DNA of 64,000 nt from Kappaphycus alvarezii. Taxonomy: Eukaryota > Rhodophyta > Florideophyceae > Gigartinales > Solieriaceae. The notes under the pieces were generated by a model that worked only from the letters and a program-made list of their open reading frames with translations, was not told where the DNA came from and did no database searches. Position 1 is the stretch's first letter, and each line of letters starts with the position of its first letter. The translations under genes were made by a program, and so were the position numbers. Shown piece by piece: positions 13,623 through 62,243 of this stretch. The stretch is from assembly GCA_002205965.3 (NCBI GenBank), contig NADL03000685.1, forward strand, positions 186,001-250,000, given 5' to 3'.

Positions 13623-13677
13623 GGGGGAAAGTTTGGATTATTATAATGTATGGAAAATTTGGTCGGTTGTATCCACG
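13623..13677 (+). mobile_element. Mini-element copy (55 bp)
   Basis: Starts GGGGGAAAGTTTGG and ends ATGGAAAATTTGGTCGGTTG, matching the head and tail of the dispersed miniature element. It abuts the end of an RLE relic. No target duplication is clear. Confidence 0.55.
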
Positions 13678-13734
13678 CCGTTAGAAGTCCGATACGCTGA
13701 AAAAGCACTCACCGAGTAACATTAAGTGAATTTC

Positions 13735-14125
13735 CCTGGAGGGACAGCTCAATATCAGCGAGCAGATATGCCGCGTTAAGCATAAAAGTCGTTGTAGCAT
13801 GCTTTTGAGCTAGCATCGCTCGAGTATTCCAATAAGTCTCCATCACTCGAACCATCAAGTTTCGTGCGACATCGGCTAGCACAGCGCACGCGTTTAGATG
13901 TCAGCCTCCATGGGTGGATATGGCGATTGGCACAAGCCTTCCTTTGCAGAAGTCGCGATCAATGGTGATAACTTCTGCGCTTGGCGGATTTCGCTGCTTT
14001 CAGGGATGTAAACGGACTAAAATTACACATTCTCTCATTAGAAGGCGCGAAGGGTTTGACGAAACTGACTTATAAGGAGTCTATTCCTCTAACACTGCCC
14101 ATTTCCTGAATAACTGACCTTTTGC
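13735..14125 (-). pseudogene. Decayed RLE of a non-LTR retrotransposon
   Basis: On the minus strand, GSVRGIDSL.VSFVKPFAPS and SPFTSLKAAKSAKRRSY, then RLVPIAISTHGG.HLNACA and MLNAAYLLADI after a frameshift, align block for block with the endonuclease domain at 33,241-34,020 (GAVGGTDYFDVTFVNPLAPS, NPLTSLTAAHVEKQRKY, RLVPVPISMLGGWHPASF, SNAACLLAGL). This domain is the C-terminal restriction-like endonuclease of R2-type non-LTR elements, which nicks target DNA for integration. Stops and a frameshift make it dead. The flanks at 14,126-14,735 hold nothing recognisable. Confidence 0.7.
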
Positions 14126-14735
14126 GGCACGATTCTGTCGCTGCTCGATGGATTTCTGCAGGTCTTCGGGGAGGAGAAAAAATTGACGGTCATTTGGTCG
14201 GATTCGTTGTCTGCCATTTAAGGGGTTCACGAGATAATCCCAGTTGCAGTCGAGGACTTCACGGCCTCAGTGCTTCGTTAGACAGAGTAATTGAGGTAGT
14301 GCGATTTTACTTGTAACGCTCTGAGCTCCAAAGATATCGAGAAGTTCGAGAAAACCTATGAGGGACTCCATCGCCCTTAGAAATATATTCAGAGAAACAT
14401 TTATTTATGATGCATAGAAATCACTGAAAATGCTTGTTTCTCGAGTTCAAGTTTACTGTGCGGAGAATATTTGTACTTCATAGGACACGTGCTTTGCAAT
14501 AAGGGCGCTTTCATGATCAAGTCACCTCTGCATGTTACTATGAGCTCCTATTATCAAGGTAATGTTTTTATGCAAATGCAATTTGAGATATAAGACGACC
14601 AAGTAAACTAACACCTCATTACTCCCCTTTATGGATGAACGCTGAGCTCATTTTATGTACCAGATAAGCTGCTGATACCCAGTCAATTTATATAGAAGTT
14701 TGCATGTACATGAAAAATTCAGGCATGTTCTGAAG

Positions 14736-15179
14736 TGAAACAGAAATAATGAGAACCAGTGGGCTGCTAAAAGGGCAGTGGAGACGATTGAAGTGAATTT
14801 AGAAAAGTCTAAGGGGAAAGGGTCAATGGAGTGTACCTGGATTTCCACAAGAATCCAGATGAGCCTTTTTTTGACAGTACTGCAGCTCTACTTTAAAACT
14901 TCTATACTTGTATCAACTGGGTAGAACTTAATATAAAGTAGATATGTAACTATAGAATAGTACTATCTAGAAAATAACGAAGTAAATAAAATGATGACGT
15001 GGGGCTCCACGTCAATAAAAACAATGAAGGAGAATTAAACCGCTATCCAGCTAGACTGAGCCTCTAAATTCATTCAAGACGATGCAGTTTTTCTGTTACA
15101 CCACTGTGTATTAGAGAACTGAAATAACAAAAACAAACAAGTCTCTATTACACAGCGGTGTAACAGGGACATTGTTACA
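14736..15179 (-). repeat. Chromovirus LTR, reverse orientation (444 bp)
   Basis: The reverse complement begins TGTAACAATG and ends CTGTTTCA, the same termini as the LTR at 17,328-17,802, and aligns with it throughout (shared CTAGATAGTACT and AGTAAATAAA-type blocks). The terminal hairpin (15,093-15,173) is conserved. TGAAG (14,731-14,735) is the adjacent candidate target-site base block, but the partner flank is missing. It is the 3' LTR of an element lying to the right. Confidence 0.85.
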
Positions 15180-15480
15180 ATATTTCCTCCCCAGGAATAT
15201 TGACTTCCTCGTCAATGGTAGTGCCGTAGTACATTGTGTATCCGAATAAACTACTCAAAAGCCTCAGTTATCATGACAGATCCATCTTACATAACTTCGA
15301 CGAAGTCCCTCGTTGCTTGCCACTCCGAATCATGACGTCGGTTACCGCCAATTGAATATAGAAACTTGTATCCCCCATCAATTTTCTTATGAGCGAAAAC
15401 GGGAATCGCTCAATTCTTATTACTCAAGTACTCAATCCGGCAACACCCTCCACAAGAGTACCAAATGATATCTAAGTAAA
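15180..15480 (-). pseudogene. Polypurine tract and chromodomain end of a truncated chromovirus
   Basis: On the minus strand a purine run (GGGGAGGAAA) sits directly before the LTR, as expected for the plus-strand primer. Upstream, the sequence aligns with the equivalent internal end at 45,419-45,720, including a degraded chromodomain (RHDSEWQATRDFV-like reading). The element is cut off near 15,480. The stretch 15,490-15,770 shows nothing recognisable. Confidence 0.65.
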
Positions 15481-15771
15481 GCGACAATAGGACAAAAAAC
15501 AAGCTAAACGCAAATGATCAGACGGAACGAGTCCTGCTGCATGCGACAGAAGTGCGTAGAGACAGAGAGTAGAGAGTAACGGGTGATGAGGTAGAAGGAA
15601 AAGGATAACGGATGAAGCCTGATAACTCGTAACTTCAAAGAGGGTTCCTGAGTTTTGAGTTCACTGCGAACCCAAATCCGGAAAAAAAAATGACTTGATG
15701 GCCCGTTTGCTACCTCCCCCTGGCGCAGTAGATTAATTCCCGTGGATACTAAAAGAAAACTACAGTCAGAA

Positions 15772-16233
15772 CTAATAAATTGCATAATTATTAAGTAATA
15801 TGAAACTACTTCCTAATTCCCTAAACTTAGGCGCCCGGCGACGGCGTTTGATATCCTTCTTGAATGGCGAACGCGTCGCCCTGGCCCACCGGACGCACTT
15901 GAAGAAGACCCCGCAGCGATGTTGCTTCGTACATGCATTCACTTGGACAGAAGATCCGGAGTAGTCCTTGTCAGCATAGACCAATAAAGCGGCGAGATAT
16001 TCCTCCGGAGACGCCTATGCATCAGCTGCAACCATATCCTTTTCCTCATTTGAGGCCTCTTCCGCCTCTAATTCGTTGAAACGCAGGGAAAAAGGGGCAT
16101 CATTGCCATTAAAAGGTGAATGACAGCGTAGAATGTAGGGTCGTTTCATCGAGAAGAGGCGCGAGAGTGAACGAAAGAAGCTGAAACGTGAAAGGGAAAG
16201 GGGTGGAAAATATTTGATGAAGTGTTGATGCAA
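15772..16233 (-). pseudogene. Unrecognised reading frame with one stop
   Basis: One frame runs from 16,233 to 15,772, interrupted by a single stop at 16,015. The product would be about 150 residues, with an acidic stretch (NELEAEEASNEEKDMVAADA), then VYADKDYSGSSVQVNA and a Cys/His cluster CTKQHRCGVFFKC, then a basic segment. It has no family match that I know. It lies between a truncated LTR element and a minisatellite, so it may be a gag-like fragment. The stretch 16,234-16,575 contains nothing I can identify. Confidence 0.25.
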
Positions 16234-16575: not shown

Positions 16576-16725
16576 CATCCCGAAAGGATAGTTTCGCTTT
16601 CATCCCGGAAGGATGGTAGCGCTTGCATCCCGGAAGGATGGTTGCGCTTGCATCCCGGAAGGATGGTTGCGCTTGCATCCCGGAAGGATGGTTGCGCTTG
16701 CATCCCGGAAGGATGGTTGCGCTTG
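16576..16725. repeat. 25-bp minisatellite, six units
   Basis: Six head-to-tail 25-bp units start at 16,576, 16,601, 16,626, 16,651, 16,676 and 16,701, with core CATCCCGGAAGGATGG. The first unit is the most diverged and the last four are almost identical. Each unit contains the dyad ATCC-cgga-GGAT, so a transcript could form a small stem in every unit. Confidence 0.95.
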
Positions 16726-16734
16726 CAACACACC

Positions 16735-18638: not shown

Positions 18639-19480
18639 ATGTCTTTCTTCAAACCAGATAATCTTGTGTTGTTTGATGGGACCCGAGACGCTTTTACGTT
18701 TTGGTCATGGTTGCATTCAGTCGAAAAGTACCTGAGACTTATTCAGCTGGGCCATGAAGAAGTCATCAGTGCCCAGAATGCTATCGACTTTGCTTCTGCA
18801 TTCATGACCGGAACTGCCGCAAACTGGTGGTAGACTTTTGTGTCCGAGAATACTGTTCCGCCTACATGGGAAGCTTTCAAACTCTTGGTTGAGGCAGAGT
18901 TGGTCCCCTAGGACAGTATCATTCGAGCTCGCGACAAGCTTACCAATATCAACCAGAAAACGAGTGTGGCAGCGTACCTCTCGGAGTTCAGGAATTTGGC
19001 TATCAATATTCCCGGTATCAGTAAGTCCGAAAAATTGGCGCGGTTCTGTGAAGGTCTCAAACCCACATTCTAGTCGAGGTTCGTAAAGGGAACCCATCCA
19101 AGTTTGAAGCTGCGACTACCATTGCTCTTAACGTTGATGGAGCATTTTACGGTGCAGGTATCTCCACAGGCATAGGTTCATTTCACACGAATCGAAATGC
19201 CTCAAGTACTATGCCGATGGAGATCGGAAACCTGAAACGTAAAAACGATGGGCAGCGTTAGAAAGATTTGATGGAGAACCGATACTTCAAGTGCCATAAG
19301 GTGGGATATAGACCTTGGAAAAACAGCAAAGAAAACAGGAATAGAGGTAACAGGGGTGATAATCGCATGATGGCGAACAATACACAGGCAGGATGCGGTA
19401 ATGGTTTGAATGGCTCTGACTCGGTAAGCTAGTTGGTCAACCAGACTTGGTGAACTCTTAGGTGAGACCAATACTAAGTG
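18639..19480 (+). pseudogene. gag: Chromovirus gag (capsid/nucleocapsid)
   Basis: Starts MSFFKPDNLVLFDGTRDAF. A capsid-like segment follows (AFMTGTAANWW; TVPPTWEAFKLLVEAE; TSVAAYLSEFRNLAINIPGI; SEKLARFCEGLKP), the classic Ty3 gag arrangement in which A-x-x-W-W precedes W-xx-F and a YxxxFxxL block. The region ends with MPMEIGN and a knuckle-like RYFKCHKVGYRPWKN (C-x2-C-x3-H with the last Cys lost), for RNA binding. In-frame stops occur at about 18,834, 18,910 and 19,072, and the frame shifts near 19,080. The same gag survives in pieces at 29,920-30,320 and 49,140-49,497 on the minus strand. Confidence 0.85.
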
Positions 19481-19659
19481 TGAAAAGATATCCTGATGAA
19501 CAGAGTGAAACTGTTGTGGACATCACCGGAGCGGAATTCTCAAAGGATAGTATTAAGTCGAGAATCTCCGAACCAGAATCTAATGGAATCACGTCTAGCC
19601 ATGATGGCAGCATCCCCACTGATGGACCTATACCAGTGGAGACTTTGTTAGTACTTGAG

Positions 19660-19990
19660 GTAGACTGAATGGAATAGGAGTCAAAGTACTAAAGGACGAT
19701 TGATGCAATACAAACGTGGTTTCAGCCGAGTTCCTGAAGCGAAATAGGAACTTGTTTGAGATTCGGCATGAAAGAATCATTGTTTCTCATTCACAGAAGT
19801 GAGTTACTGAGGAAATATCTGAGATCATTCTCAACGGAACTATTAAGATAGGCGAATATACATATGGTTCTAGTTGGGCTGTGTCTCAAACCAGGTAAGA
19901 TGTTCTGTTGGGAATGCACGTGGATTGTGTGCATGTTGCACACAATCCACGTGTCGACTATCGGAAACAGATTGTGATAGTAAAAGATGC
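19660..19990 (+). pseudogene. Chromovirus aspartic protease
   Basis: A segment reading NTNVVSAEFLKRN (about 19,709-19,750) matches the post-active-site strand of Ty3 proteases (D-S/D-G-A/C-xxNxVS..F). The D-T/S-G triplet itself is degraded, with a stop beside it. DVLLGMH (19,896-19,920) is the conserved late strand (xDVILGxxW). Immediately after it a perfect palindrome (19,917-19,953) replaces the expected residues. The protease would process the Gag-Pol polyprotein. Confidence 0.7.
19917..19953. repeat. Perfect 17-bp palindrome with 3-nt spacer
   Basis: CACGTGGATTGTGTGCA (19,917-19,933) and its exact reverse complement (19,937-19,953) flank TGT. The related element at about 48,600 lacks the left arm at this site, so the palindrome is derived. 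Confidence 0.95.
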
Positions 19991-20961
19991 TTCCATTCCA
20001 GTGATTGATCCCGATGACGAAAACCGTATTGATGTGTCCACTTTGGGAATGAAGAAATTTAGACGAATGCTGAGGCATAGGGGTGACTTTGAAGTTTTTC
20101 AGTTACTTCAAGCTCAATGTATGAGAGGAGTGACAGATTCAAAGTCCGATAGAAGACTGAGCAGATTACTGAATAATTTTAAAGAGGTATTTCAGAATGA
20201 ATTGCCAAGTGGGCTTCCTCCGATTAGATCAATTGATCATTATATCAAAGTGGAGGAAGGAGCAAAGAGACCTCATCGACCTTTTTTCCAGTTGTCTCCA
20301 TCCGAACTTAGGGCAGCAAAAGAGTACGTCGAGTCTTTTTTGAGGAAAGGGAAGATCAGGTCCAGTAAATCACCATATGGAGCACCTCTTTTCTTTGTGA
20401 AGGAAAGGGATGGAAAACTTGGAGGTTTTGTAGATTATCGCGCTTTGAATCCCATCACTAAAACGAATATTGCCCCACTCCCTCGTTCTGATGAAATGTT
20501 CGATCGACTTGGAGATGCGAGATTTGTGTCCAAGCTTTATCTGAAAAACGGGATTTCATCAGATAAGGGTGAACCCAGAGGACATCGAAAAGACTGCGTT
20601 CAATACAAACTATGGGCAGTTGGAATATATTTTTATGCCAATGGGACTTTGCAACGCTCCTGCTACGTTCCAAACTTTGATGAACCAGATCTTCTATGAT
20701 TGCATCGATGTCTTTCTGTTTGTCTATTTGCGAGATATTCATATATTCAGTAAGAATGGGGAAGAACATTACGAAAATCTGGAAATTGTACTAATAAGAC
20801 TCAAGGATCACAAGCAGTACATCTTTCCGATGAAATGCTCTTTCTTTCAGACTGAGCTGGAGTGTTTGGGTTTAATAGTAGTGAAGGACGGAATTCTTGT
20901 CAATCTTGAGAAGGTCAAAGTCTTTCAAACTTGGCCAAAACCTGAATATCTAACGGAGTGA
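19990..20961 (+). pseudogene. pol: Chromovirus reverse transcriptase
   Basis: The connector (ASIPVIDPDDENRIDVSTLG) leads into the RT: PSGLPPIRSIDHYIKV, RPFFQLSPSELRAAKEYVE, GKIRSSKSPYGAPLFFVKE, GGFVDYRALNPITKTNIAPL. A frameshift follows near 20,570. The second frame has YIFMPMGLCNAPATFQTLMN (fingers/palm), then FVYLRDIHIFS at the catalytic site. The family has Y-x-D-D-I there; one Asp is replaced by Arg, so the enzyme is dead. ECLGLIVVKDGI and PEYLTE close the domain, with a stop at 20,959. Order and length fit Ty3 RT. Confidence 0.9.
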
Positions 20962-21416
20962 GAAGTTTTTTAGGTCTAATACAGTTTTTCCGTAGGTTAA
21001 TCCCGAGGCTCTCTTCAATCGCTGCACCTCTCACAGATTTGACAAAGAAAGGTCGAGATATAGGTAAATGTGATCAAAAGTGTGATGGAGCTTCCCTGAG
21101 GCTAAAGGAAGCAATGAAATTGGCCCCAGTCTTGGTCGCTCCCGATTGGAAAAAGCCATTTCGTGGTCATGTAGATGCTTCACAGTTCGCTGTTGACGGA
21201 ACTCTGACGCAGTTGGATGAGAATAGAAAAGATCTCGTAATTCCTTTCTATTCAAAGAACCTTTCCCCAACTGAGACGGACTACACTGCAAACGAAAGAG
21301 AGCCGCTGTATTTGACTAGCTTTCTGGGAAGATTCAGGTGCTACATTGAAAGTTCCGAATTTGAGATTTCACAGACAACCAGGTGCTTAAGAGCTTCTTC
21401 ACAGAACCGAAACTGA
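20958..21416 (+). pseudogene. Chromovirus RNase H
   Basis: RSFLGLIQFFRRLIPRLSSI ends the RT connection. Then HVDASQFAVDGTLTQLDE carries the first catalytic Asp block (family DAS..AxGxxLxQ), and YTANERE marks the second acidic position (family YxxxExE). The last part (GRFRCYIESSEFEI.T) matches the family R-x-YIxGxxFxVxTD end. A stop at 21,414 interrupts. The domain degrades the RNA strand of the hybrid during reverse transcription. Confidence 0.85.
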
Positions 21417-21436
21417 GTTGGATAAAAGCACGTTAG

Positions 21437-22680
21437 TTGGGAACTCTTGGTAACTTCGGAATCTTCCCATCACACACACGCACAAACGCCTTGGGAGACG
21501 CATTTTACCGAGTTCCGCACGTGATGAGAGGAGATCGTGACGTCTCAGTGAATGACGTTGGAGTTCCCTACATTGATGGTGATTGGATCATTCCTCGGTA
21601 TGATGACGACCAGTTCTTCGGTCAAGTGGTAAAAGCCATGGAAGGAGAATGGCCAGAGGATATGTTTCAGAAGCCGAAACTTGAAAGAACTCTGCCGATG
21701 TTCCGAAAAGATAGTTCGAAGGCTGTTTATAATGGAAATTTGTGCGTACCAAGAACGTCAGCTTCGGATATTCTGCAAAATGCTCACGACTCGAAGGTTG
21801 CTGGACATTTTAAATTTTCAAAGACACTGCCGAGATTATAAATTTCCATAGGAAACATAAGAGCCGGGATGTTCGAAAGTACTGTGAAGGATGCCTCACG
21901 TATCAGCAGTATAAAGACTCTAATCAAAAAAATGTTGACTGATCCAGCGTCACTGGAATTGCCTGACTGCGGATGGATATCATTACCTACAGGTTTCATT
22001 GTGAGGCTACCCCTGACGAGGAGCGGTCATAATGCGACCACTACTTGGGTTGATCGACTTACTCGTCGAGTCCATTTTCTGAAATCCAAAACAGCAGATA
22101 CTACTCAGGACACGGCTCGATACTTCTTCGCGAAAATCCTCAAGAACCAAGGGGTGCCGGACGATGTGACCTCAGATAGGGACATCAAGTACATTTCAAA
22201 GTTTTAGAAGACAGTGGTGATTCTTTGGGGGATGAAATTAAGAATGTTTACAAGTAGGCACCCACAAACAGATGGTGCTTCCAAGATTATGAATGGGATG
22301 ATCGAGAACCATCTCCGTTGAAATTTCTTGTATCATCAGGATGACTGAGATGAACTATTTCCTTCTGCAGAATTTGCATACAAATCCGCTGTGAGCGACG
22401 ATCTCGGTATGTCACCATTTGGGCTGGACTTGGGATGGGCACCTAAATCGCCATTGGACTTCTCGGTTAACAGCAGCATACGTCTTCAGAGTTTGGACGA
22501 CTTCCGTGCCAACCTCAAGGTTTCTCTTGAGGATGCGCAATTTGCCTACAAAGTGGCAAAAGCTCGGCAAGCTGCATATGCTTCAAGGCGATACAAGGTT
22601 CTAGATTATAAAGTCCGTCCAAAGTTATGGATCAATCGTTCGTTGTTTATGGATTTTAAATTCTAGGTCACAGGATTCTA
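21437..22680 (+). pseudogene. Chromovirus integrase
   Basis: N-terminal HHCC zinc region: NAHDSKVAGHFKFSKTLPRL, then, after a frameshift, CEGCLTxQQY (the second Cys of the CxxC pair reads as Arg). Core: LTRSGHNATTTWVDRLTRRV (first Asp block), QGVPDDVTSDRDIKYISKF (second Asp block) and SRHPQTDGASKIMNGMIENH (Glu block). The conserved C-terminal stretch GMSPFGLDLGWAPKSPLDF and the RQAAYASRRY segment follow. Stops occur at 21,839, 22,207, 22,320 and 22,664. Integrase inserts the cDNA; the chromodomain after it would guide it to chromatin. Confidence 0.9.
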
Positions 22681-22811
22681 AAAAACTTGGTGCGCGCAGA
22701 TTCGGCCCATTTGTGGTTAAGTAGCTAATTGGTAAGAATGCTGTTCGACTGGATCTCCCTGTTAATTTTAAAATCAATCCATTTATTCACATACTTCACA
22801 CCACACAACAT

Positions 22812-23054
22812 TTGGAGCAGCCTGATGACATTTCTTTACCAATTCATTCTACAGCTGCACCGCTTGAACTGCCTGGTGCACCAGAACAGGAAGTTGAGGT
22901 TATCTTGAATGACGTAAAGGTTGGAAGCGGTTACAAGTTCTTGGTTTTGATGCGTGGTGTGCCACGTCATGAGGCGGAGCGGCAACCAACGAAGGATTTT
23001 GTTGATATTCTGGAATGTAGATCTGCTGTAGTAACGAATGCTTCCCAAGAGTAA
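22812..23054 (+). pseudogene. Chromovirus chromodomain (integrase C-terminus)
   Basis: An open 80-residue segment reads EVEVILNDVKVGSGYKFLVL, then RGVPRHEAERQPTKDFVDI. This fits a chromodomain (VExIL..R...G..YLVKWKG.P..EATWEP...) with E-A-E-R-Q-P in place of the aromatic E-A-T-W-E-P cage. Chromodomains bind methylated histone tails and steer chromovirus integration. In the reverse copy at 45.5-45.7 kb the same motif reads RYKAEWLPTRDFLD, which retains the Trp. Confidence 0.8.
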
Positions 23055-48561: not shown

Positions 48562-48599
48562 TATCGCAATTCTTCGTTGTTATTCAACATTCGGACTGT

Positions 48600-48760: not shown

Positions 48761-49139
48761 TCATCGAATCTCAAGAAAACTTCTTATTTCTCTTCAGTAA
48801 GTCAGCTAAAAACAATTTTACATTGATTCATTCATCCTTTAGTACATTGATTGATTCCACATTCACTCTATCTTAAAGCGATAAAAAAGGCTCCACTGGT
48901 ACAGGCCCATCCGTGGGGATGCTTTCATCATGACCAGACGTGATTCCACTATATTCGGCTTCGGAAGTGCTCGACTTTTTGCTGTACTCAGAGAAATTAG
49001 CTCTGGTGATACATACAACAGTTTCATTCTGCTCATTGGGACATCAGTTCACATTCATGACTGGTCTCACCTGCATTTTCACTAAGAATGGTGGACAAAA
49101 TAGTTTTCCGAATCAAATACCTTCAAAGACTTACCGTGT

Positions 49140-49497: not shown

Positions 49498-49948
49498 CGA
49501 CTCCTTTATACCGGGAATACATATATTTAATCTGTCCAACAACCAAGTAGTACCTGTTCTGAGCACGTGCCCCTTAGTCCAAGTACAGTCCAAGTCGACC
49601 CTTTCAAGCACTACCTGAATCCGTGACCCAGTCGGTGCACCTAGCCAACAGCCAATAAATGCAATAGTATTGTAGAGAAATACTGACATTGGACCCTGAA
49701 ATGGGGACTTTTTCAGAAGCACGGCTTTACCGAGGCTACATCGTTAAGCCAAACTGTGCAGTCTAATTATTCTGCATAACATCACGCAACTTCGTGAGGC
49801 CTGTACGCTACCTGTATAGAATGGCCTAAAAAATCTTTGCTGCACCGTGACGTTCCCGACCAGCAAGGTCTCCAGTTAGTAACATGAAAAAAGAAAAATT
49901 CACGTTTACAATACCTAAAGGTAGAGCAAAACAGAAGCGATGATACCA

Positions 49949-51817: not shown

Positions 51818-52532
51818 TTAGAGATCGATGTAGATACCGAAGTCGGGTCCCTCGGTTTCAATTTGACGCAGGAAGGAGGCGGCGGATTCTTGTTGTATAA
51901 TAATGTTTCCGTCGTATGCGTACCATTTCTGAAGAGGGGCCGTACGAAAATACTCACGTAAACGAATCAGTAATGGGTGTATTGATAGCCCGTAAAGGGG
52001 CATGGCAAGTAGATCGCCTTGGTGTGTACCGGTCCTAGAGGAGACCAAGTAGGGGCCGAAAAGAGGGTGCGATTGGTGGCCATATACCAGGTGCGCGTAA
52101 CGAGCAACCTGCAGATGGGTCAATCTAAAGAAGAGCGGAAGCGGCCTTGGCAATATGTCCGTCACGAAGTAGGGGCTGAAAACGTTGAGCATGGGTGAGG
52201 AGGGAAGAGGTAGAGGTGGATTGGTGGTGCATGAGGGGAAAGGCTTCCAGGCATCGGGTGTACAGATCCTCCCATTTCCCCGCGGTGGCTAGCGCGAAAC
52301 GAGATCGCACAGAAGAGACGAAGGCGGAGGAAGAGCAGTTGCGGGTTTCTTGCCGGCCATGGAAACGGAGAACAAGCTTTGGGACCGCAAATATTCTGGC
52401 AAGTGCCTCCGGCCGGTGGGTCTCGGATCGCCTCGAGGCGGAGCGGGAGAAGAGGTCATGGTAGAGGCGGTGGATGTCTGTGCGGAGGCAGGTGGGAAGG
52501 TACTTGAGGGTGGGGACGCCAGCAAGGAACAA
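51818..52532 (-). pseudogene. Reverse transcriptase of the non-LTR element
   Basis: First frame (52,125-52,532): FLAGVPTLKYLPTCLRTDIH, LARIFAVPKLVLRFHGRQET and a LATAGKWEDLY region, ending FQPLLRDGHIAKAASALL, the typical N-terminal part of this RT type. Second frame (51,818-52,192): YAHLVYGHQSHPLFGPYLVS, SRTGTHQGDLLAMPLYGLSI (the QGD-P/L block) and KWYAYDGNIII, where the catalytic Y-A-D-D reads Y-A-Y-D. The loss of that Asp and a frameshift inactivate it. Confidence 0.8.
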
Positions 52533-52573
52533 GACGTCAGGGAGAGGGCACTAATGGTAAGCCGGAGGTTAGG

Positions 52574-53404
52574 TCATGATGAGAGTGGTATCATTTCGGA
52601 ATCGGAACAGGGGATGTGTTCAAGTACAAGTGAAGAAAACTGGTTGCTGTTCGGAGTAGGCACAGGATGGATGGCGATTGCTGGCGACTCGGTGGTATGG
52701 CCACGGGCTAGGGTGGGGGCAGGACCAATGTAAGGGGATGGAGTGCGATGGCCAATCGTTGTCCAGACACCGGAACCAGGCTGCGGACTTGTTGAGCGCG
52801 GGCGCTTGGTATGTGTTGAGTGTAGGGGTGGGGGCAAAGGGTCGATGGTGATGCCAGCGTCGGAGCTGGAGAGGGCGTCGTAGACAATGCGCTCGGCATC
52901 GCACAGGGCGGCGGCGAATCTCGGAGCAGGTATCCACGAGCAAGTGTCGGATTCCAGTCTCACAATTTCACTGCGCAACCTAAATAGGACGGAAGCCATC
53001 TCTCCACTGGGCAGGTGGGTGGTGTCAGAAGTGAGAATGCCTGAGAAATCCAATTCTGGTGCAGCGAGGTTGTCGGACTGGGTGGCAAGCGTTTTAAACG
53101 CACTATATTCTTGTTGAATGAATTGCAGGTCGCGCTCGGCGGCTGCAACGAAAAATGTGCGGGCATCTGCTGTCAGAATGACAGAACAGGAGCCCGGAAA
53201 CCCGCCACTGGCGAGGCCGCGACGGAACTGAGAGGGATCATGTACCCTCTCAGTAAAGTCTCCGCAAAGTCTGATGGAAAGGTAATACGGACGAACTTCT
53301 TGTCGTTGCCACCAAAAAGACCTCGTGAGGGCCCGTCGACCTGTATCGGCAAATTTTTCCGAAATGCGCAGGCCAGAAAGAATCGCCACGCCGCGGCGGA
53401 CCAA
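52574..53404 (-). pseudogene. ORF1-like segment of the non-LTR element (276 codons)
   Basis: The longest open frame of the window on this strand. It has AAAERDLQFIQQEYSAFKTL (possible coiled coil), MASVLFRLRSEIVRLESDTC, then a low-complexity PPPLHSTHTKRPRSTSPQPG linker. It sits between the N-terminal segment and the RT. I recognise no domain. The low-complexity linker is typical of such elements before the RT. Confidence 0.45.
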
Positions 53405-53464
53405 GACGAGGAGAGGGGTGACCGGATAAGACGGAGAGTTTCGTTTGGCAGCTTTTAGATATGA

Positions 53465-53880
53465 TTATGGTGTAGGCGTCGGTGTGGATTGTGCGGCGGT
53501 GGCGTTATTGTCTGACGGCGGGCCAGCGGGATGACCAACGGCCGGGGAATGGACTGAAGACTCAGGCGGGGGAGTGTGTGTGTCGACTAGTGGCAACCCA
53601 GCTAGGGAAGCGAGTATAGCGATAACGGATTGAAATCGCGGGTTGTTACAAAAGGAAGGGATGAGGGTTTGGGCTGCGTAGTAGTCTTCGAGTTGTGAGC
53701 AGAGTCGTTGAACTGAGGCGGAGTCGCTAAGGTCGACGCTGGCATTCAGAGGGGGGAGGACTGAACGAGGAAGTCGAGGGCGGCGAAGGTGAGAGATACG
53801 AGGGCAGCGACATAGGACGGAGTGGAATTTGCGGACGGAATGGTGGGATGGAGAGAGGGGGAGTTGATCTTGATGTTGGA
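53465..53880 (-). pseudogene. N-terminal ORF segment of the non-LTR element
   Basis: The minus-strand frame reads RKFHSVLCRCPRISHLRRPR, VQRLCSQLEDYYAAQTLIPS, FQSVIAILASLAGLPLVDTH, then a Pro/Ser/Thr-rich tail. It resembles a gag-like first ORF in composition only; no zinc knuckle is visible. Its first residues lie in flanking DNA. Confidence 0.4.
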
Positions 53881-54082
53881 ACCGATTCACAGAAAAAATC
53901 ATTTTTTGGTTTTGCTAAATAAGTCGCTTGAAATTTGGAATCTTGAGATGGACAGGGCATTAGATTATGGTGCCGTTTTCTGTCAATTACCATCCAGTGA
54001 CATAATTTATTGTTAATTAAATAAACGGATGTCTTCTTTGATAAGATTTCAATGAAATAGGTAGTTTGGTGGACCGAAAAAG

Positions 54083-54130
54083 GGGACGAAATTTTTTGCG
54101 TTAATTTAATGCATGGAAGATGTGGTCGGG
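54083..54130 (+). mobile_element. Mini-element copy (B2, first of three)
   Basis: Orthologous to 30,676-30,722. Flanked by GACCGAAAAAG (54,072-54,082) and GACTGAAAAAG (54,131-54,141). Confidence 0.6.
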
Positions 54131-54141
54131 GACTGAAAAAG

Positions 54142-54195
54142 GGGGGAAATGTGGGGTGATTTCATATTTGAAAGATATGGTCGGTTGTGGCCCGG
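54142..54195 (+). mobile_element. Mini-element copy (B2, second)
   Basis: GGGGGAAATGTGGGGTGATT, TCATATTTGAAAGATATGG, TCGGTTGTGGCCCGG. It directly follows the GACTGAAAAAG repeat. The next 90 bp (54,196-54,285) match nothing else here. Confidence 0.65.
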
Positions 54196-54297
54196 AATAT
54201 CGTACAGGGTGCGCAGTAATACCTCTGAAATTAACCTAAAAAGCCGGCTCAAGGCCCCCCAGCAGACGGGCTGCGTTGGACATTACGGCCGAAAAAG

Positions 54298-54341
54298 GGG
54301 GGGTAAAGGGGTGGTTTACTGCGAGTAATGGAAAGGTTGGG
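54298..54341 (+). mobile_element. Mini-element copy between exact 12-bp repeats (B2, third)
   Basis: GGGGGGTAAAGGGGTGGTTT to GGAAAGGTTGGG, lying between CGGCCGAAAAAG (54,286-54,297) and CGGCCGAAAAAG (54,342-54,353). B1 has only one related site, GACCGAAAAAG at 30,723. Confidence 0.65.
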
Positions 54342-54435
54342 CGGCCGAAAAAGTTATTGCTTTACAGTTTTTCGAAGCAGATTTCGGAAATACTTCTAAA
54401 GGAATTAAATCTTTCATAAATTCAGGAGCTGGTTC

Positions 54436-54819
54436 ATGGTATCCATTTCAATCATGCAAAATCCCTCGACAAAGGATGAAAACTCTTTACTTTCATTTCT
54501 TCTGTACGGAGATCAAAAATCGGTTAAAACCCCGACCCGCCGTTTCCAACAAGAAAAAACTAAGCAGTTCGCTGTATTGGGACGCAGGAACACTTGCATG
54601 AGTACTTCAACAAGATACCGCCGAAAGGCAAGTAACCGTCCACAAAATGCTCCGGCCGATGCAATGGGATTTTCCAGTCTCTTTACTAATTTTCGGAACG
54701 TGAACAACACAGCAAAAAACCGCCGTTCTTTCCAAACAACAAAAATCCCAGCATTTCCCTCTACTTCTCGCAAAAGAATACAGTACACCAAACAAATTTC
54801 CCAGGGGACACGGATTTAA
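54436..54819 (+). CDS. Hypothetical ORF of unit B (B2)
   Basis: Copy of 30,816-31,244: MVSISIMQNPSTKDENSLLS through KNRRSFQTTKIPAFP, then a different end because of one inserted base. 127 residues, basic, no known motif. Either this copy or B1 carries the altered C-terminus. Confidence 0.3.
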   Translation: MVSISIMQNPSTKDENSLLSFLLYGDQKSVKTPTRRFQQEKTKQFAVLGRRNTCMSTSTRYRRKASNRPQNAPADAMGFSSLFTNFRNVNNTAKNRRSFQTTKIPAFPSTSRKRIQYTKQISQGTRI

Positions 54820-55069
54820 ATTTCTTAACGCTGCTGTTCACTTTACGGAATATACTTGGGCATAGCCGCCCACATCTTTCAAATATTAAAAAACCCAAGC
54901 TTTTCCCCCTTTACACGAGAACTTCCAGTCGAAATTATAGTTTTAAAGGTCTCTGAACTCTACTCAAACCTGGTCATCACCCACAAAGTGCTATCCTACT
55001 AACATCTTCTTGAACCTGAAGCCACGATCCTTAAACGTCAACTCCATCTCATTTACAACCTTTGTCACC

Positions 55070-55774
55070 ATGCCGTTGCAACACTTTCCTGGCGGTCTCA
55101 ACGTAATGGCCCCATCACCAATGCTGCCATCACCACCTTCACTCTGGACAAGTAGACGAATGGATTGCACTGCCATGGCCTACAGGCCAAATTATACCCC
55201 GTATGGCCTCAACGTCTACATCAAAATGAGCAACGCGCCACGTTTCTTTCTCGGTTTCCCCTGTTTTACGTATAATAGCTTGGTTATCCGTCTGCCAGGT
55301 CAAGCTATTTATCTATGGATTCTGAACATGGGGCTCACCGCAAACTTTATCAAGTATTGCCCGCGCCGGAACTCCGCGGAATCTGACTATCGCCGCAGAG
55401 TAAAGGAAGATATGGACGATTTGACAAGGTCAGTTAACAGTCCGGATTGCCGTGTAGAAATAAATCACGACCATACAGGATCATGGCCCGGGCAGCGGTT
55501 CCAGGTCGATGCGGTGGTAGGTAAGGCTAGTGAGGATAACATCTTGACTGTCGATTTGTCTATGGTCATTTGGCGTCAAGAAGCGGTTCAATTCGGTGCG
55601 CAAGCAGGGCGTATCGAGTACGTCGTTACACAAGGGCGCGCAGGTGGGATGGAAAACAGTACTATGGCTGCGGAGTCCGGAAGTGATGCGTGGACGTCGA
55701 GGAGGTCGTTGCCACCTGTACCATCGGACCGCTCATATCTAATTACGAAGGGCCAGTCGTATTGGATGGATTAG
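55070..55774 (+). CDS. ORF B, copy B2, intact 234 residues, novel family
   Basis: Start MPLQHFPGGLNVMAPSPMLP, end KGQSYWMD. The start was chosen by alignment with ORF A; the frame is open further upstream to 55,010. Blocks shared with ORF A: YGLNVYIKMSNAPRFFLGF, SLVIRLPG, LWILNMGLTANFIKYCPRR, RRRVKEDMDDLTRSVNS, CRVEINHDHTGSWPGQRFQV, VGKASEDNILTVDLSMV. It then continues with a Gly/Ser-rich tail absent from A2/A3. I estimate A and B share roughly a third of residues, with few gaps, so they are old paralogues that both kept reading frames. No signal peptide, no transmembrane helix, no motif I know. Confidence 0.6.
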   Translation: MPLQHFPGGLNVMAPSPMLPSPPSLWTSRRMDCTAMAYRPNYTPYGLNVYIKMSNAPRFFLGFPCFTYNSLVIRLPGQAIYLWILNMGLTANFIKYCPRRNSAESDYRRRVKEDMDDLTRSVNSPDCRVEINHDHTGSWPGQRFQVDAVVGKASEDNILTVDLSMVIWRQEAVQFGAQAGRIEYVVTQGRAGGMENSTMAAESGSDAWTSRRSLPPVPSDRSYLITKGQSYWMD

Positions 55775-55929
55775 TCACAACTTACACTATAAGCACGTTC
55801 CCAGAGATTGAGAGGGTCTCTTAATTTTGAATTGTCTGCAGTTTGCTGACTGCTGTGATCATATGATTAGCGAGACATGTCCATTGATTCACTTGTAACA
55901 CGGATAGTTGAAGAAGTAAAGGATTTATT

Positions 55930-56157
55930 TTGGCTCAAATATTTCGTGGCTACAGCGAGCTGCGTCTTTCAGTTGAATGGCCAACTCAAGAATCACGCGG
56001 CCATCGTAACTGTAACTGTCGGGTGGCGTCATGTTTTCATTTTAAAGCTGTCCTAGGTTTCAGCCCTCTGGAGACTCGCGGTAAACACATCCCTTATTTT
56101 CTCTATCGCAAAAGAAGAACAATCAGAGATTGGATTTCGAGAGTGAGCCAGAAATAA
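55930..56157 (+). CDS. Small hypothetical ORF of unit B (B2)
   Basis: 75 residues, MAQIFRGYSELRLSVEWPTQ, HRNCNCRVASCFHFKAVLGF. Sister of 32,310-32,525. Very tentative. Confidence 0.2.
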   Translation: MAQIFRGYSELRLSVEWPTQESRGHRNCNCRVASCFHFKAVLGFSPLETRGKHIPYFLYRKRRTIRDWISRVSQK

Positions 56158-56849
56158 ACTCCTGAGAGAGAAACAGCAAGTTAAATTGTGCTTATCGAAA
56201 AGACAGTACCTTATGGATTTGATAGCCGTTACATCAAATCCAGCAAACCTTCCGGGTGGCCTCTCTTCAGTCTTCTATTGCGGAACAACCGATCAGCTGC
56301 CTGATAGATTACTCGGGCAAATGAATTGGTAAAGTACGAAGTTTATATACTGCGAAAGCTTAAATGGCTGAGGGCCAGGGGAGTTTTTAAGTTAGGTGTT
56401 GTGTAGAGCAAATAACACCGACCATGCAGCTCGAAAACTGGGGGTTAATGGGGCCGGTTTTCCTCGAGCGATGCAAACGTATGGTGTCCTCTGAACTTGT
56501 ATTCAAACCATTTGGCAGGTTATGCTGTAGAAAAAATGTAAAAACACATCTAGACACGAGTGATGAATGAAATAAGCGAAACACAACCCAGCAGTTTTCC
56601 AGTCTTCAGAAAGCTAAAACTCCCGTTCCAATCGATTGGGAACATGAAACCAAAAATTTAGGTCGGCCTTACCTCTGTCAAAATCATCTCCACAGCCACC
56701 TTCCCCGCTTCTAGCTTCCAAACAGACCAGCTGTGTGACTGATGCCTGCCGTCCGCAGTGAACCACTTGGCAACCTACGAGGAGGCCAAATCACCATTCA
56801 CCCATGACCAACTCCGCAGTCAAAAGTAGTTCCCTACAGCGACTTATGC
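56158..56849. repeat. Unit B2, 3' region with empty mini-element site
   Basis: Aligned with 32,526-33,198 and then 34,076-34,136; the family-1 RLE of B1 (33,199-34,075) is missing. AATGAATTGG at 56,320-56,329 is the empty counterpart of the insertion at 32,710. No gene. Confidence 0.75.
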
Positions 56850-57540
56850 TTCAGCAACCCACCCTTGTGAAAGAAACTGACGGATGCAATTCACGACGCA
56901 GTTCAAGAACGAACATCCCCTGGAGACAGCAGGGGACAAGCTTCCGCCAGGTTGAAATTCTCAGGTCGGACTTGGCAAAGACCGCTCGTCACCCTGTCAT
57001 GGAAAAAAATGGGATAGATCGGATATATCTTCCAGTAGTAAATCACCCAAACCTTTCCCACTGTCAAGGAGCCCCGTCTCGATGGCCAACATCGCAGGAG
57101 GCCAGATATCTGGGCTACAGGGAGTACCGGAGGGACAGACGTCCTCGACGCTACTGTAAATTCGCGAATACACTTGCTCCCTCAAAATAAACGGGCACGA
57201 TGTTTCCACCCCTTGACATCTCTGAACGCTTCGGGATCATTGAAGTTCAGAAGGTTTGAAGAGTTTACCACCACGCAAGCGAGGTCTTGACTGATCTCAC
57301 TGCCAATATTCACCGTTGGAGGGTGGAACTCCGACGCATTCGCGGTTCTGGCAGACGTAGTCTAACACTTCGCCGTGCGAGTTATTGAAATCTTTGGAAG
57401 GGTGTGACATCTCCTCCTACAAAGACAAGATGCCGCGATAGTTCCGCCCAACGCGACATTTCTTACGGCTGGTCTTTCACCAGCCTTTTGAGATAGTCTC
57501 ACCTGCCCCCGTCTCCTACTCGGAGCCTCCAATAAGAAGA
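56850..57540 (+). pseudogene. RLE relic, family 1 (before A3), split by a mini-element
   Basis: The reading is TLVKETDGCNSRRSSRTNIP, RQVEILRSDLAKTARHPVM, then the mini-element (57,004-57,060), then EPRLDGQHRRRPDIWATGS, GGTDVLDATVNSRIHLLPQN, FHPLTSLNASGSLKFRRF and the C-terminal GGWNSDAFAVLADVV, SPNATFLTAGLS-type blocks. The PD..D core (RRPDI to LDAT) is clear once the insert is skipped. Stops occur near the end. Confidence 0.7.
57004..57060 (-). mobile_element. Mini-element copy inside RLE coding sequence, 10-bp target duplication, empty sister site
   Basis: A 57-bp insert (AAAAAATGGGATAGATCGG to CCCAAACCTTTCCCA) between CTGTCATGGA (56,994-57,003) and CTGTCAAGGA (57,061-57,070), 9 of 10 identical. 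The sister relic has a single AGTCATGGAGCCCC at 34,767-34,780. In element orientation this copy ends in six T. Confidence 0.9.
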
Positions 57541-57860
57541 CTTGCCTCCCTGGTCTCTGGAAACAGCATTCTCACATTCTAATTGTTGCACAGTGTGAAC
57601 CGAAGAGGATGACTATTGTCCTCTTTTATTTTACTCCCAGAGCTATTCCAAGGTTTAAGTACTCTTTCAGGAGAAGACTCCTGCCAAATATTTGTATGGC
57701 AGAACTCTCCCTGGCTCACCTAGGAGAAATAATCAAGTATATTTTCATAATTACATATACACGTAATGCGTGTGGAAATCTTTTATGGGAAACGAAAGTC
57801 CCTAAGCAAGGATTAGGAGGAAGACCAATAATAACTACTCAGGCACGCGGCGGCTGTTGA
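57541..57860. repeat. Segment S0 of A3
   Basis: Aligned with 16,986-17,322 and 35,221-35,545. No gene. Confidence 0.8.
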
Positions 57861-58795
57861 CGTGGAGGGCCTTCATCCCATGACGGCAGAACGAAAAGAG
57901 GATATCTATATCCTGAAGCTCCGTATCGGGTGCTGAATTCCGTGGGCTTGAAGCGAAAGAAGCGAGAAGGCGAAAAATTTTGTTCCCCTTTCCCTAAAGC
58001 TCCATAGGAATCAACACCTACTGGGAGGAGAAAAATCTCGTGAACGTTGCTGTGTGGACCGTAACGTCGGAACTTCGCTTGCTCAGCAAGATTTGCAGCG
58101 GTGCCGGCGGAATATGCGCTTTAGGAGATGCAATTGACGGTGTCGGGATGGGCTGCAGTGACATTCAGGGCAATGTCACGAGAGTCGAGCCCATAGGCAC
58201 CCAGAATGTACAGGTCCATGCGTAGAGATGGAGAGGAGTTTGGATCATTAGGGGAAGAGTGTTTTTGACGAGCGCGGAGATACACAATTCCCTGCAGTAC
58301 CGGTAGATGGCATCCCGGAGTAAATTGTGCATGAGTGTTTGTCCATCGTCATACTTATAGGTCAGAGTGAGTTTGGCGAGAGGGTCCAGGAGAGGGGTAA
58401 CATCAGAGGGACGCCGGGCGCAATCGGGGCAACATCACCGTCCAGAGAACAGCGGGAAGCCACGGCGCAAGGCAACGACAACTTTCCGAGCATGGAAGAA
58501 TAAAAACGTGCCCCGATGGTGGTGAGGAAGTGCGGAATTACGGAACAAGAAGATTTAGTAGACAATGCGTATCTTTCCGCCAATCAACGCCTTGTTTTTG
58601 TCAGTATATGCGACATGACAGGGGTGTGAGATGAAAAGGTCTCGTTGATGTAGAGCGGAGACGGTTCAAAGACACTGGAGGGCTCTGAGGGGATTTTGGG
58701 CATCTATTTTGGTGCTGCCGGAGCTGAGTCATCTGAAACTAGGAAGACTGTGTTTCTGTTGACCCTGTCAGGCGCACGTGAGACAGGGGAAAAAA
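57861..58795 (-). pseudogene. RLE relic, family 2 (S1 of A3)
   Basis: Complete S1 copy without the L2 insertion. On the minus strand: GGKIRIVY-like, CPDCARRPSDVTPLLDPLAK (zinc motif), LTYKYDDGQTLMHNLLRDAI, and a frameshifted endonuclease core. It shows the uninterrupted GATGCAATTGACGG site of L2. Confidence 0.6.
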
Positions 58796-60363
58796 TGCTT
58801 TGGTCGTCTTCATTCTCTGACCTTTGATTAGCTATAGTACCTTCTCTTGCACAAATTTGCTAGTAGCTCCTATCCTTCCTCGCCCTTTTTCACTCTCAGA
58901 ATATTACCAGGGAGGGTATCTCTCCTGTTAAGCTTGCTTTTCCTTTATGAGATCCCCTCCTTAATCATTATTAATTTATATAAATATTTTAACAGTGTAA
59001 ACACCCCTTAAAATCCACCCTTAACCGAATTGTTTTCCTTACGCGCTTCTTCAAACTCTCTTTTTCTATGCATTGGCCCGTTCAAAGGCGGAGAATGAAA
59101 TTACATTTTATATTTTGTTATTTATTTCAAATCTATAGAAAGTTTTCTCAAAGCCTTCATAACCCATTCAATCCGAGCGACAAACCCTTCTGACATCTCC
59201 AATTCCCTATCAATCCCCAAATTAAAATCACAAGGACTACCCTACGCCCTTCCCGGTCTATTTCAAAAGCTCGGTACCCTCGCCCTCTAAACACCACTTT
59301 CCTGCTCCCTCTTGGTCCCGCCGATGCGAACGACTGCCTCCATCGCCAAACGAAGATGATCACAGAATTAGTCCGAAGATTCCTCGTTGAAAACGACGAC
59401 TCTGAGGAGAAGGAAGACGCTGGTTATTCTTTTAAGGCGCGGTTGAAATCGGAGATGTTTTATCAGTATGAAGAATTGCACAAGGAGGTTATGATAGAAG
59501 CTTCAGAAGATGACGACGAGGGCCAGGATTCCGAAGAAAAGGATGAGAATACGGACCTGAAGGTCAGGGAAGTTGATAAAAAGGGGGTAGCAGAGGTGAT
59601 AGAGTGAGCCTCAGGCTGGATCGGAGTGACCAAGTTGTCCCGCCGTTAGTTAAGGGAGGGGATATTTTTAGTGGTTCAGATATTTACCTAGATGCAGTAA
59701 AAAGCGGTGACCCATTCTGGGATATTTCTGGGGACTGCCTGGGTAGCAAAGATACTTTAAAGTTATTTTTTTGGATTTGATCTAGGAGAATGGAAATGGG
59801 AGGACTAAACTGTTTTTTCGCCTCTCGCGTATGTTATGTCTAGAGTATATCGTCCAGAAAAAGTATTTTTCTGCATTAAATTGATTTTTTGTAGTTTTAA
59901 TCGTATTTGAGGGGTACCCAAATTTCTATGTGAGCTGAGTAAACTACTTCCTCAAGGAGATTAAAAGAAAGTTAGAAGACAACTTTAAAGTGGTACCGAG
60001 GTAGGTAGAAATAGATCGTCGACTTCGGACCCAAAAATTTATAAACTGCTTGCAAGCCCCGAAGGAAAGTGGAAGAGGGTATTCCTTTAGGCTTGTGTAG
60101 AAATGCAGTTTTTCTTTTCATTTCCACAAATCCCATTTACCCCGCAACGTATACGGTGTCAATTGCATCGCACTCAAAGTGTGGAATGCCTGCCTCCTTC
60201 CGAGCAAACCCGTAGGCCCTGGGTCTCTCGTTCATAAACGCCACTTTTATTCCTAAAAATACCATCAAGTAGCATTTTTGTCACTCGCAACACCTACGGT
60301 TTTTGAAAGTGGACATCAGATAACTATTTGACGCCAATATACCACTTTCAGACCCTCTCAACA
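58796..60363 (+). mobile_element. LTR-like unit L2, copy in A3 (1568 bp)
   Basis: Starts TGCTTTGGTCG and ends CCTCTCAACA. Aligned over its length with the A1 and A2 copies; carries the best acidic ORF. Confidence 0.6.
59356..59607 (+). CDS. Acidic protein ORF of L2, best copy (83 residues)
   Basis: Open from MITELVRRFLVENDDSEEKE through FKARLKSEMFYQYEELHKEV to ASEDDDEGQDSEEKDENTDL and a stop after VAEVIE. About one third is Asp/Glu. The reading continues after the stop with LDRSDQVVPPL-like, GGDIFSG-like and GDCLG blocks (to about 59,740) that also exist in the L2 copy at 36.4 kb, so the original protein was longer. Possibly nucleic-acid or histone interacting by composition only; no domain recognised. 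Confidence 0.4.
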   Translation: MITELVRRFLVENDDSEEKEDAGYSFKARLKSEMFYQYEELHKEVMIEASEDDDEGQDSEEKDENTDLKVREVDKKGVAEVIE

Positions 60364-60826
60364 TTTACTTGCCTCCGAAAATCCTGGTTCATAGTAGCGA
60401 CTAAGAACTGCTCATCCACTCGCAAGAAAATATTGGGCTGGTTTACTGTGGAGATCAACTTGCTTAGTGCTTTCCCAACCACGAACAAAGAGAGGTCCAA
60501 AAGAAAACTCTGTAGGAGAATCGTAAGACGAATTTAACCACCGTGTCAGGCCGGGCACGCATCTGTACAATTCCCAAAATGCGCTGGCGTGAAATGCAAC
60601 AGAGCGTGTCGAGCACCAATCTGGACCAACACGTTGTCGTGGAATTCGGTGCTCTGCGAAACGACGCACGGAATGAATAATTTTATCCGTTTCATTTCTG
60701 ACACCTGGAACGACCTGAAGGGGCAGGAAGTAGAGCGAAGGGCGGTAGGAGGATTTGTGTACCGTGGAACATATTCCAAGGAAGTGCATCTCTTTGTAAG
60801 TCGATTGTGGTTGTCTGGAAAGCTTT
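60364..60826 (-). pseudogene. Segment S3 of A3, minus-strand coding relic
   Basis: The best-preserved S3: a 125-codon open frame on the minus strand (60,412-60,789), with VVPGVRNETDKIIHSVRRFA and SPTEFSFGPLFVRGWESTKQ, overlapping another with HALLHFTPAHFGNCTDACPA. Two overlapping frames mean that at least one is chance. The family is unknown. Confidence 0.35.
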
Positions 60827-60876
60827 GGGATAGATGAAATATATCTTCCAAAAGTAAAACACCAAAACCTTAGTTA
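60827..60876 (-). mobile_element. Mini-element copy (A3)
   Basis: GGGATAGATGAAATATATC, TTCCAAAAGTAAAACACC. Orthologue of 40,013-40,058. Confidence 0.7.
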
Positions 60877-61332
60877 GAATGAGCCCTGACTATATGTCCA
60901 TCTTTTGGAGCAACACAATGATCTAGCCGTAGCGTTCAAATGAGTTACTGCAACTGAGTGCCTACACATGACCATGATTGGGCCAAAGATTTCGATGGCA
61001 ATGTTCATGAGATAAATTTACTGAATGTATTTTGATCAACTGTGATGAGCCGCTCACGGGAAGCAACAGAGGATCAAGCACCTTATTTTATTGCAGTGTA
61101 CTCCAAGTGATCCAGTAGATCAAGAACTAGTCAGTGACCTGACTACCCGGATGAGTTACGATGGCTATGCACATGACCACTCCTTGTAGTCCCAAACGAA
61201 AATCAGAGAATCTATAGCAGACGCAAGTAGTATAGGAATTGAGCTTTAGGACCAAGTAGTTAGAGATGAAAAAGAGGTACCGAACACGGACACAATATCA
61301 TCCACCGCCCTACGTCCAAATCTATCTACCCT
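60877..61332 (+). pseudogene. Relic shared by A2 and A3
   Basis: Near-identical to 40,059-40,518, with the frame QELVSDLTTRMSYDGYAHDH and RESIADASSIGIEL. Unrecognised. Confidence 0.3.
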
Positions 61333-61375
61333 TACTTATCTTCCAAGAGTGAAACACCCAAACCTTCCCCATACT
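61333..61375 (-). mobile_element. Mini-element copy (A3)
   Basis: TATCTTCCAAGAGTGAAAC, ACCCAAACCTTCCCC; orthologue of 40,519-40,560. Confidence 0.55.
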
Positions 61376-62082
61376 AAAAGCGTTCTTGTCCGACAACAAC
61401 TCATTCTCTGGATTACTGCCATACCTCTGAGCGATTTCTTGGATGCCGTGTACAGTTGCGAGTTGCAACACCTGCTTAAAGACCTTGGAACGTAATCTGC
61501 CGCCTTCTGGGCACTAACCTCATTGAGCAGCTATCGATCAATCTACACAACGTGTCCTTAACGCTATCGGTCGAGGTGACATGTCCTTCTTCGCCAACAG
61601 GGTTAGAAGTGTACCAACGATCCAAGGGGGGGAACGGGCGGGTGCTTTTCCTGTTGCCCAAACATTAACAAGTCGCGGAGGATCTGCTAAAAAAACCGGA
61701 AGTCCCTTATGAGGATGGACCTCGTAGCAACTATCAGGAACCAACCCACATATCTACCACAGTAAATCAACCCCCCATTTCACTAGCAAGCATGACTTTA
61801 GACCTGAGCCTCCGGGAGAGAATCCCAGTTTGAATCCCTTGATATCACCGAGAACCTCATGTATGCTAATAGGGCGGAAGCTGCAGCCCCTAGAAAATAG
61901 TCCTCTGGTTCTAGTTGACTACGGGGACTACGAGGCGGAGAATGACATCTGCTGCTTAAAAAACAGGGTCCTTCGCCCGTAAGCATGGAATTTACAGAAT
62001 GATGCAACGACGACGACCAGCACACAGGATGGGCAACTTTGCGGGAAAACATATGGTTTCCTTTTATAGCGCCGTTCGAACA
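61376..62082 (+). pseudogene. Segment S4 of A3, coding relic
   Basis: Aligned with 27,104-27,757 and 40,561-41,213, with the same RVLFLLPKH, LLKKPEVPYEDG and RPEPPGENPSLNPLISPRT-like frames, and broken by the mini-element at 61,739. Confidence 0.35.
61739..61780 (-). mobile_element. Diverged mini-element copy, absent from A1 and A2
   Basis: A 42-bp insert (AACCAACCCACATATCTACC to AACCCCCCATTT) between AACTATCAGG (61,729-61,738) and CACTAGCAAG (61,781-61,790), 7 of 10 identical. A1 and A2 read AACTATCAGGCATGAC without interruption (40,916-40,931). Confidence 0.65.
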
Positions 62083-62133
62083 GGGGAAAGTTTTGGATCT
62101 TTTTACTGTTGGAGGATATAGTGATCTATCCTA
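62083..62133 (+). mobile_element. Mini-element copy (A3)
   Basis: GGGGAAAGTTTTGGATC, TGTTGGAGGATATAGTGATC; orthologue of 41,214-41,273. Confidence 0.65.
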
Positions 62134-62191
62134 TAAGCAACGCCATCTTCCTACACCATTCACGGGCGAGGGGTGTCGGTACCGTCAACAA

Positions 62192-62243
62192 CGGGGGGAA
62201 GGTTTGAGTAGTTTAATCTTGGAAGATATATCTGATCTATCCC
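62192..62243 (+). mobile_element. Mini-element copy (A3)
   Basis: CGGGGGGAAGGTTTGAGTAG, TTTAATCTTGGAAGATATAT, CTGATCTATCC; orthologue of 41,325-41,383. Confidence 0.75.

Follow-up and report, generated by a model that had tools for sequence, protein, structure and literature searches.

Short dispersed repeats in a Kappaphycus alvarezii contig as the probable 3' ends of severely truncated LINE retrotransposons

A 64,000-nucleotide stretch of the genome of the red alga Kappaphycus alvarezii (assembly GCA_002205965.3, contig NADL03000685.1, positions 186,001 to 250,000), referred to here as the window, carries a dispersed family of short repeats which a preliminary description had taken for a mobile element of a kind not yet described. 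The copies are very probably the 3' ends of LINE (long interspersed nuclear element, or non-long-terminal-repeat) retrotransposons belonging to at least three subfamilies (A, B, and C), left by severe 5' truncation during target-primed reverse transcription. Read as LINE ends, they give no ground for an undescribed element; the observation of a repeat family nonetheless stands, because the loci that can be delimited are separate insertions with precise junctions.

The common end of the family is best seen when the copies are aligned on the strand opposite to the one first described. The supposed conserved head, GGGGAAAGGTTTGGGTG, then becomes a common 3' end, ...ACACCCAAACCTTTCCCC, which takes the form CACCCAAACCTTTCCCC in A and CACCCAAAGTTTTCCCCC in B in the alignment. 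These 3' ends coincide in most aligned copies and the 5' ends differ, so that of the conserved head and tail originally proposed only the head holds, as the shared 3' end of the other strand, while the tail end varies. A common 3' end combined with a variable 5' end is the anatomy of 5'-truncated LINE copies.

In three units of the window the end of a LINE reading frame is connected with a tail of type B or C: 33205-34070 (plus strand), 13623-14239 (minus strand), and 54142-54286 (minus strand). Two of these units each lie between direct repeats as one insertion. Counted over independent LINE C-terminal copies, a B or C tail is present in three of four and an A tail in none of the four. The longest unit, LINE-a, has a frame at 33220-34017 and a TAG stop at 34018-34020, directly followed by a C-type tail of about 45 bp, and the whole is one 5'-truncated 866-bp insertion (33205-34070), which the sister block lacks and where AACCTACG is single. 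A protein search with the frame returned 13 homologues at E <= 0.001, the best being the eukaryote transcript P0001, which covers 77% of the query at 58% identity, and the LINE C-terminus matches EukProt transcripts with the prefix GFKZ; the frame has no Pfam match, and in IMG/VR it found no relative and a 20-mer no exact match. We read 33220-34017 as the C-terminal part of a LINE-type protein, a label that rests on features familiar from LINEs, on the anatomy of the insertion, and on its 5' truncation relative to P0001, which is longer. The LINE-a tail also occurs alone at 61736-61782 (plus strand; 91% identical over 45 bp) in the third of three duplicated blocks, with nothing at that place in blocks 1 and 2. 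The second unit, LINE-c, consists of C-terminal coding sequence with stops at 14239-13748, similar to the LINE-a frame at E = 8.6e-18, which runs directly into the B copy at 13,623 (about 13670-13623). In the third, a 145-bp insertion, the last 16 LINE codons, beginning at 54286 (VMSNAARLLGGLEPAF and a stop), are followed by a short 3' untranslated region (UTR) spacer and a B tail. These codons score 36.75 against a four-row LINE end profile and rank fifth among all 16-mers without a stop in the six-frame translation of the window, the next 16-mer below them scoring 28.5; the four higher scorers are LINE-a and three block copies of a further LINE, LINE-b, and three of those four were themselves in the profile.

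The insertions can be delimited at eight loci, with sizes of 37, 44, 46, about 45-52, 55, 57, 145, and 866 bp, six of the eight thus being no longer than 57 bp, and target duplications of 8-12 bp occur at seven of them. Sister copies of the duplicated blocks within the window provided precise empty sites at five loci (32710, 41876, 57004, 33205, and 61736) and at the compound locus 54142-54344, and a clear duplication is present at four of the five, the exception being 61736, a C tail of about 45-52 bp with no clean duplication. At LINE-a, AACCTACG (33197-33204) and AACCCACG (34071-34078) are alike at 7 of 8 positions, the empty site lying at 56772. The duplication is exact for the 37-bp A copy at 32710-32746 (minus strand; AATGAATTGG at 32700-32709 and 32747-32756, empty site 56320-56329) and for the 55-bp B copy at 41876-41930 (minus strand; CAAATTTCAAA at 41865-41875 and 41931-41941, empty site 62732). 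The 57-bp A copy at 57004-57060 (plus strand) lies inside an older LINE copy between CTGTCATGGA and CTGTCAAGGA, with its empty site at 34768. The 145-bp copy is flanked by GACTGAAAAAG and GGCCGAAAAAG, alike at 9 of 11 positions, and the neighbouring 44-bp B copy at 54298-54341 (minus strand) used the same target, with GGCCGAAAAAG on both sides (11 of 11). The B copies at 30677-30722 and 54083-54128 (both minus strand) are one insertion of about 46 bp shared between blocks, with an 11-of-12 duplication read as GGACTGAAAAAG / GGACCGAAAAAG at the former and GGACCGAAAAAG / GGACTGAAAAAG at the latter. The target YGAAAAAG was used by three insertions of the same orientation at 54,083-54,341. An automatic duplication test, which covers inserts up to about 130 bp and was run against 400 random control positions, gave a score of at least 9 for 5 of 25 copies (four loci) and 2 of 400 controls, and of at least 7 for 8 of 25 copies and 40 of 400 controls; among those eight copies at least two (27099 and 34063) are not true duplications. 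The 10-bp target duplications of the preliminary description are thus borne out at some loci only; for 17 of 25 copies the scores stay within the control range, which may be an effect of age.

The census of the family is based on three profiles, one for each subfamily, built from members and searched against the window. They gave 25 tail sites, 14 of A (E <= 5.1e-5), 9 of B (E <= 1.9e-4), and 2 of C (E <= 4.9e-11), these values being partly circular because family members served to build the profiles. The best matches in ten 64-kb Markov decoys reached E = 0.085 (A), 0.81 (B), and 0.78 (C), and the reversed window produced a single A match (E = 1.6) and none with the B and C profiles. A profile made from eight A-type seeds of the window recovered five non-seed A copies at E <= 7.1e-7. 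With 25 sites and decoys no better than E = 0.085, the dispersed family first described is real, its copies are found in both orientations, in block alignments as among the profile sites, and some are common to the duplicated blocks, as had been stated. All but one of the 24 copies first listed are among the profile sites; the exception, 27,758, falls short of significance by itself (E = 3.5), and the block alignment shows it to be the half of the 41,214 copy that remains at the edge of a deletion. Two sites, at about 31,241-31,289 and 54,862-54,910, are additions to that list. Merging of block-shared copies, a grouping of our own made from the block alignments, leaves 16 distinct loci (7 A, 7 B, and 2 C). 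A scan of GTDB genomes with a 17-mer of the tail yielded 27 single matches, spread over varied bacteria and one archaeon, which is about the chance level: by our reckoning some 30 are expected for a word of 17 bases when both strands of 257 Gb are scanned.

Under target-primed reverse transcription, a LINE endonuclease would nick the target, and the reverse transcriptase would start at the 3' end of the LINE RNA (...CACCCAAACCTTTCCCC), frequently halting within 37-57 nt, after which the stub would be joined between target duplications of 8-12 bp. Since copying would proceed from the RNA 3' end, the strand on which the family was first described would be the first cDNA strand, starting GGGGAAAGG. 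The enzyme, the order of nick and first strand, and the cause of the early stop are inferred. The six bases flanking the first strand at 15 of the 16 loci contain 40 A among 90 bases (25.5 expected, p 0.002), a skew that can be no more than suggestive, since a single nested target accounts for three of the 15 loci.

Several observations weigh against a LINE origin for the whole family. No full-length LINE was seen in the window, no intact reverse transcriptase is linked to the tails, the LINE pieces have no match to Pfam reverse transcriptase models, and no tail follows the stop of LINE-b (34696-35193, with block copies at 57063 and 16735). The final codons of LINE-c score below 22 against the four-row end profile; its identity rests on the upstream coding sequence. 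Duplication scores below 7, within the range of the controls, were returned for 17 of the 25 copies, and the terminal C run is missing at one A locus, represented by three sites (40013, 60827, and 27020). Nowhere in the window does a recognisable LINE frame continue into an A-type tail, and the relations between subfamilies are faint: the profile from A seeds also detects five B copies (E 0.011-0.066), starting at model position 2 or 3, and the B profile matches ten A copies (E 0.064-2) and none in the reversed window, but each of these cross-matches is weak, none being better than E 0.011. The C profile detects its own two members only, and the homology of C to B accordingly rests on inspection by eye. 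A LINE origin of the A subfamily may be supposed through its sequence similarity to B only. The preliminary description had itself remarked that its proposal would fail if all copies proved to be parts of one larger ancestral repeat, and this is largely what B and C are; for A it may be presumed.

The identities it had suggested were a tiny retroposon, a miniature inverted-repeat transposable element (MITE) related to Mutator-like elements (MULEs), and an introner-like element, of which the first comes nearest. A non-autonomous retroposon resembling a short interspersed nuclear element (SINE), in which a short RNA consisting of the tail is the template and about 45-57 nt is the element's own length, would suit the six of eight delimited insertions that do not exceed 57 bp, but it is improbable: the delimited sizes spread from 37 to 866 bp with no single length, the 5' junctions differ between copies, and coding sequence is present in the copies of 145 and 866 bp. 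The usual RNA polymerase III promoter would also not fit in the tail stubs; as for other SINE hallmarks, the window contains no transfer RNA gene and no Rfam match at the gathering threshold, and no promoter search was made. With 5' ends that differ, and hence no defined 5' end, the copies were not classed as a SINE. MULE target duplications measure 9-11 bp, the range given in the preliminary description, and MULE-derived MITEs are small with duplications of similar size, so that the 8-12 bp found here overlap with what would be left by a MITE, MULE-like or otherwise, that a transposase mobilises in trans. Such an origin is nevertheless very unlikely, since terminal inverted repeats were not seen by eye in the delimited copies, the copies have only one end in common and vary at the other, and the longer ones extend into a LINE reading frame; for want of inverted repeats and two fixed ends it was set aside. 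In a Pfam scan of 22 of the 57 stop-to-stop frames of at least 110 codons, the only matches (E <= 0.001) were to reverse transcriptase, RNase H-like, and integrase zinc-binding domains, the last below its Pfam cut-off. An introner-like element, to which short, dispersed copies in both orientations might point, has almost no likelihood and was rejected, given that seven of the eight delimited copies (37-145 bp) have no GT..AG at their junctions, whichever strand is read and whatever the shift within the duplications; the single pair in the eighth, LINE-a (shift 3, minus strand), is taken as chance.

Truncated LINE ends of comparable appearance are known from Lepidoptera, and a literature search with narrow phrases for miniature or very short LINE copies led, as its closest result, to one source on them (PMC2887409). 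The lepidopteran RTE LINEs have an extremely short 3' UTR, and truncated copies consisting of the 3' end only, between 6-12 bp duplications, had been mistaken for SINEs (PMC2887409). The likeness to the tails described here lies in the extremely short 3' UTR and in the SINE-like appearance. The lepidopteran elements often end in simple-sequence repeats and keep the end of the reverse transcriptase coding region (PMC2887409), whereas six of the eight delimited copies here measure at most 57 bp and have no recognised coding sequence. A simple-sequence 3' UTR of the RTE type was not found, the tails being non-repetitive sequences of about 45 nt with no tandem array listed at them. In stringent-type LINEs, the element's proteins recognise a stem-loop in the 3' tail, as described for zebrafish ZfL2-1 and ZfL2-2 (PMC4176376); a conserved 3' tail common to LINE copies is the point of resemblance, and the stem-loop is where they may part, as no covarying stem was found here. 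The folding tail hairpin of the preliminary description reduces to a weak 6-pair stem in the A alignment (-3.3 kcal/mol) with compensatory change in none of the six pairs. Folded singly against shuffles, nine of ten tails have z-scores of -1.41 to 1.22 and one, 28,772, of -2.09, and the six B and C tails fold singly at 0 to -1.6 kcal/mol. A hairpin as conserved core was set aside, no covariation having been found and nine of the ten tails lying close to shuffles.

The remaining B-type tails are at 43993-44040 (minus strand), which is identical over 46 bp to 41877-41922 and has no duplication that could be found, and at the two sites detected by profile, 31241-31289 and 54862-54910 (both plus strand), which form a block pair. 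The A-type tails are mostly shared between copies of the blocks, and profile and block alignment agree on a pair at 28771-28830 and 43233-43290 (both minus strand), on 41214-41264 with its block copy 62083-62132 (both minus strand), and on 61334-61371 and 27066-27100, block copies of a short tail which the profile places at 40520-40557 (all plus strand). The half copy of the 41214 tail, assigned by block alignment, occupies 27758-27773 (minus strand). A longer form is found at 41325-41415 (minus strand), of which 41330-41415 aligns over 86 columns with 39973-40057; the block alignment gives 62193-62284 (minus strand) as its copy. The tail at 39973-40061 (plus strand; tail proper 40002-40057) is also of the longer form, and like its block copy at 60786-60875 (plus strand) and the tail at 27020-27064 (plus strand), which is likely the block-1 counterpart of 40013 with its 5' part split off, it has no terminal C run.

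The blocks in question are three (partly four) diverged direct copies of a multi-kilobase unit, at 23533-28928, 37325-43390, and 58131-64000, and further duplicated pairs are 30460-33204 with 53867-56779 and 34616-35833 with 56844-58135. In block 1, about 500 bp at 26519-27018 that do not align to blocks 2 and 3 appear to divide an A-type tail (26,509 and 27,020 sides). About 460 bp (40062-40519) lie between two A-type tails in block 2 and in its block 3 copy; block 1 is without them, and its two A-type tails adjoin. A family of repeated stop-to-stop frames of 210-275 codons, 39-95% alike, occupies 54947-55771, 62861-63535, 42105-42734, and 27678-28358; the three scanned (42105 excluded) have no Pfam match, and 54947-55771, the only member searched, no protein match at E <= 0.001. 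A further LINE-like region at 51821-53464 (minus strand) combines a reverse transcriptase-like frame containing GTHQGD and YAYDG with a long upstream frame; it has no Pfam match, and a protein search covering 51821-52288 only returned nothing at E <= 0.001. At 19007-23015 and 45526-49519 the internal region of a retroelement is present twice in inverted orientation, the two copies being 72% identical over about 4 kb; the former matches reverse transcriptase, RNase H-like, and, weakly, integrase models, in the order of Ty3-type elements. A tandem array of about six copies of a 25-bp unit is located at 16576-16727.

The excess of LINE copies shorter than 60 bp is unusual. By the measure of PMC3747384, in which truncated LINE copies range from 100 to 1,000 bp, the stubs are short. 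The skew may not be general, because every count was made in a single 64-kb window where duplicated blocks abound. That stubs of 37-57 nt are the main product of the LINEs of this genome is a tentative and rather doubtful proposal, for which a weakly processive reverse transcriptase, or a host factor halting it just past the tail, might be responsible. If it were true, the genome would be seeded with tail-only insertions, each a near-constant short sequence with a duplication of 8-12 bp. The window illustrates that LINE tails alone can mimic a new class of miniature mobile element, and that duplicated blocks can be used as built-in empty sites for deciding such cases. If the skew below 60 bp holds genome-wide, the tails would preserve a natural record of the points at which reverse transcription of LINEs comes to a halt.

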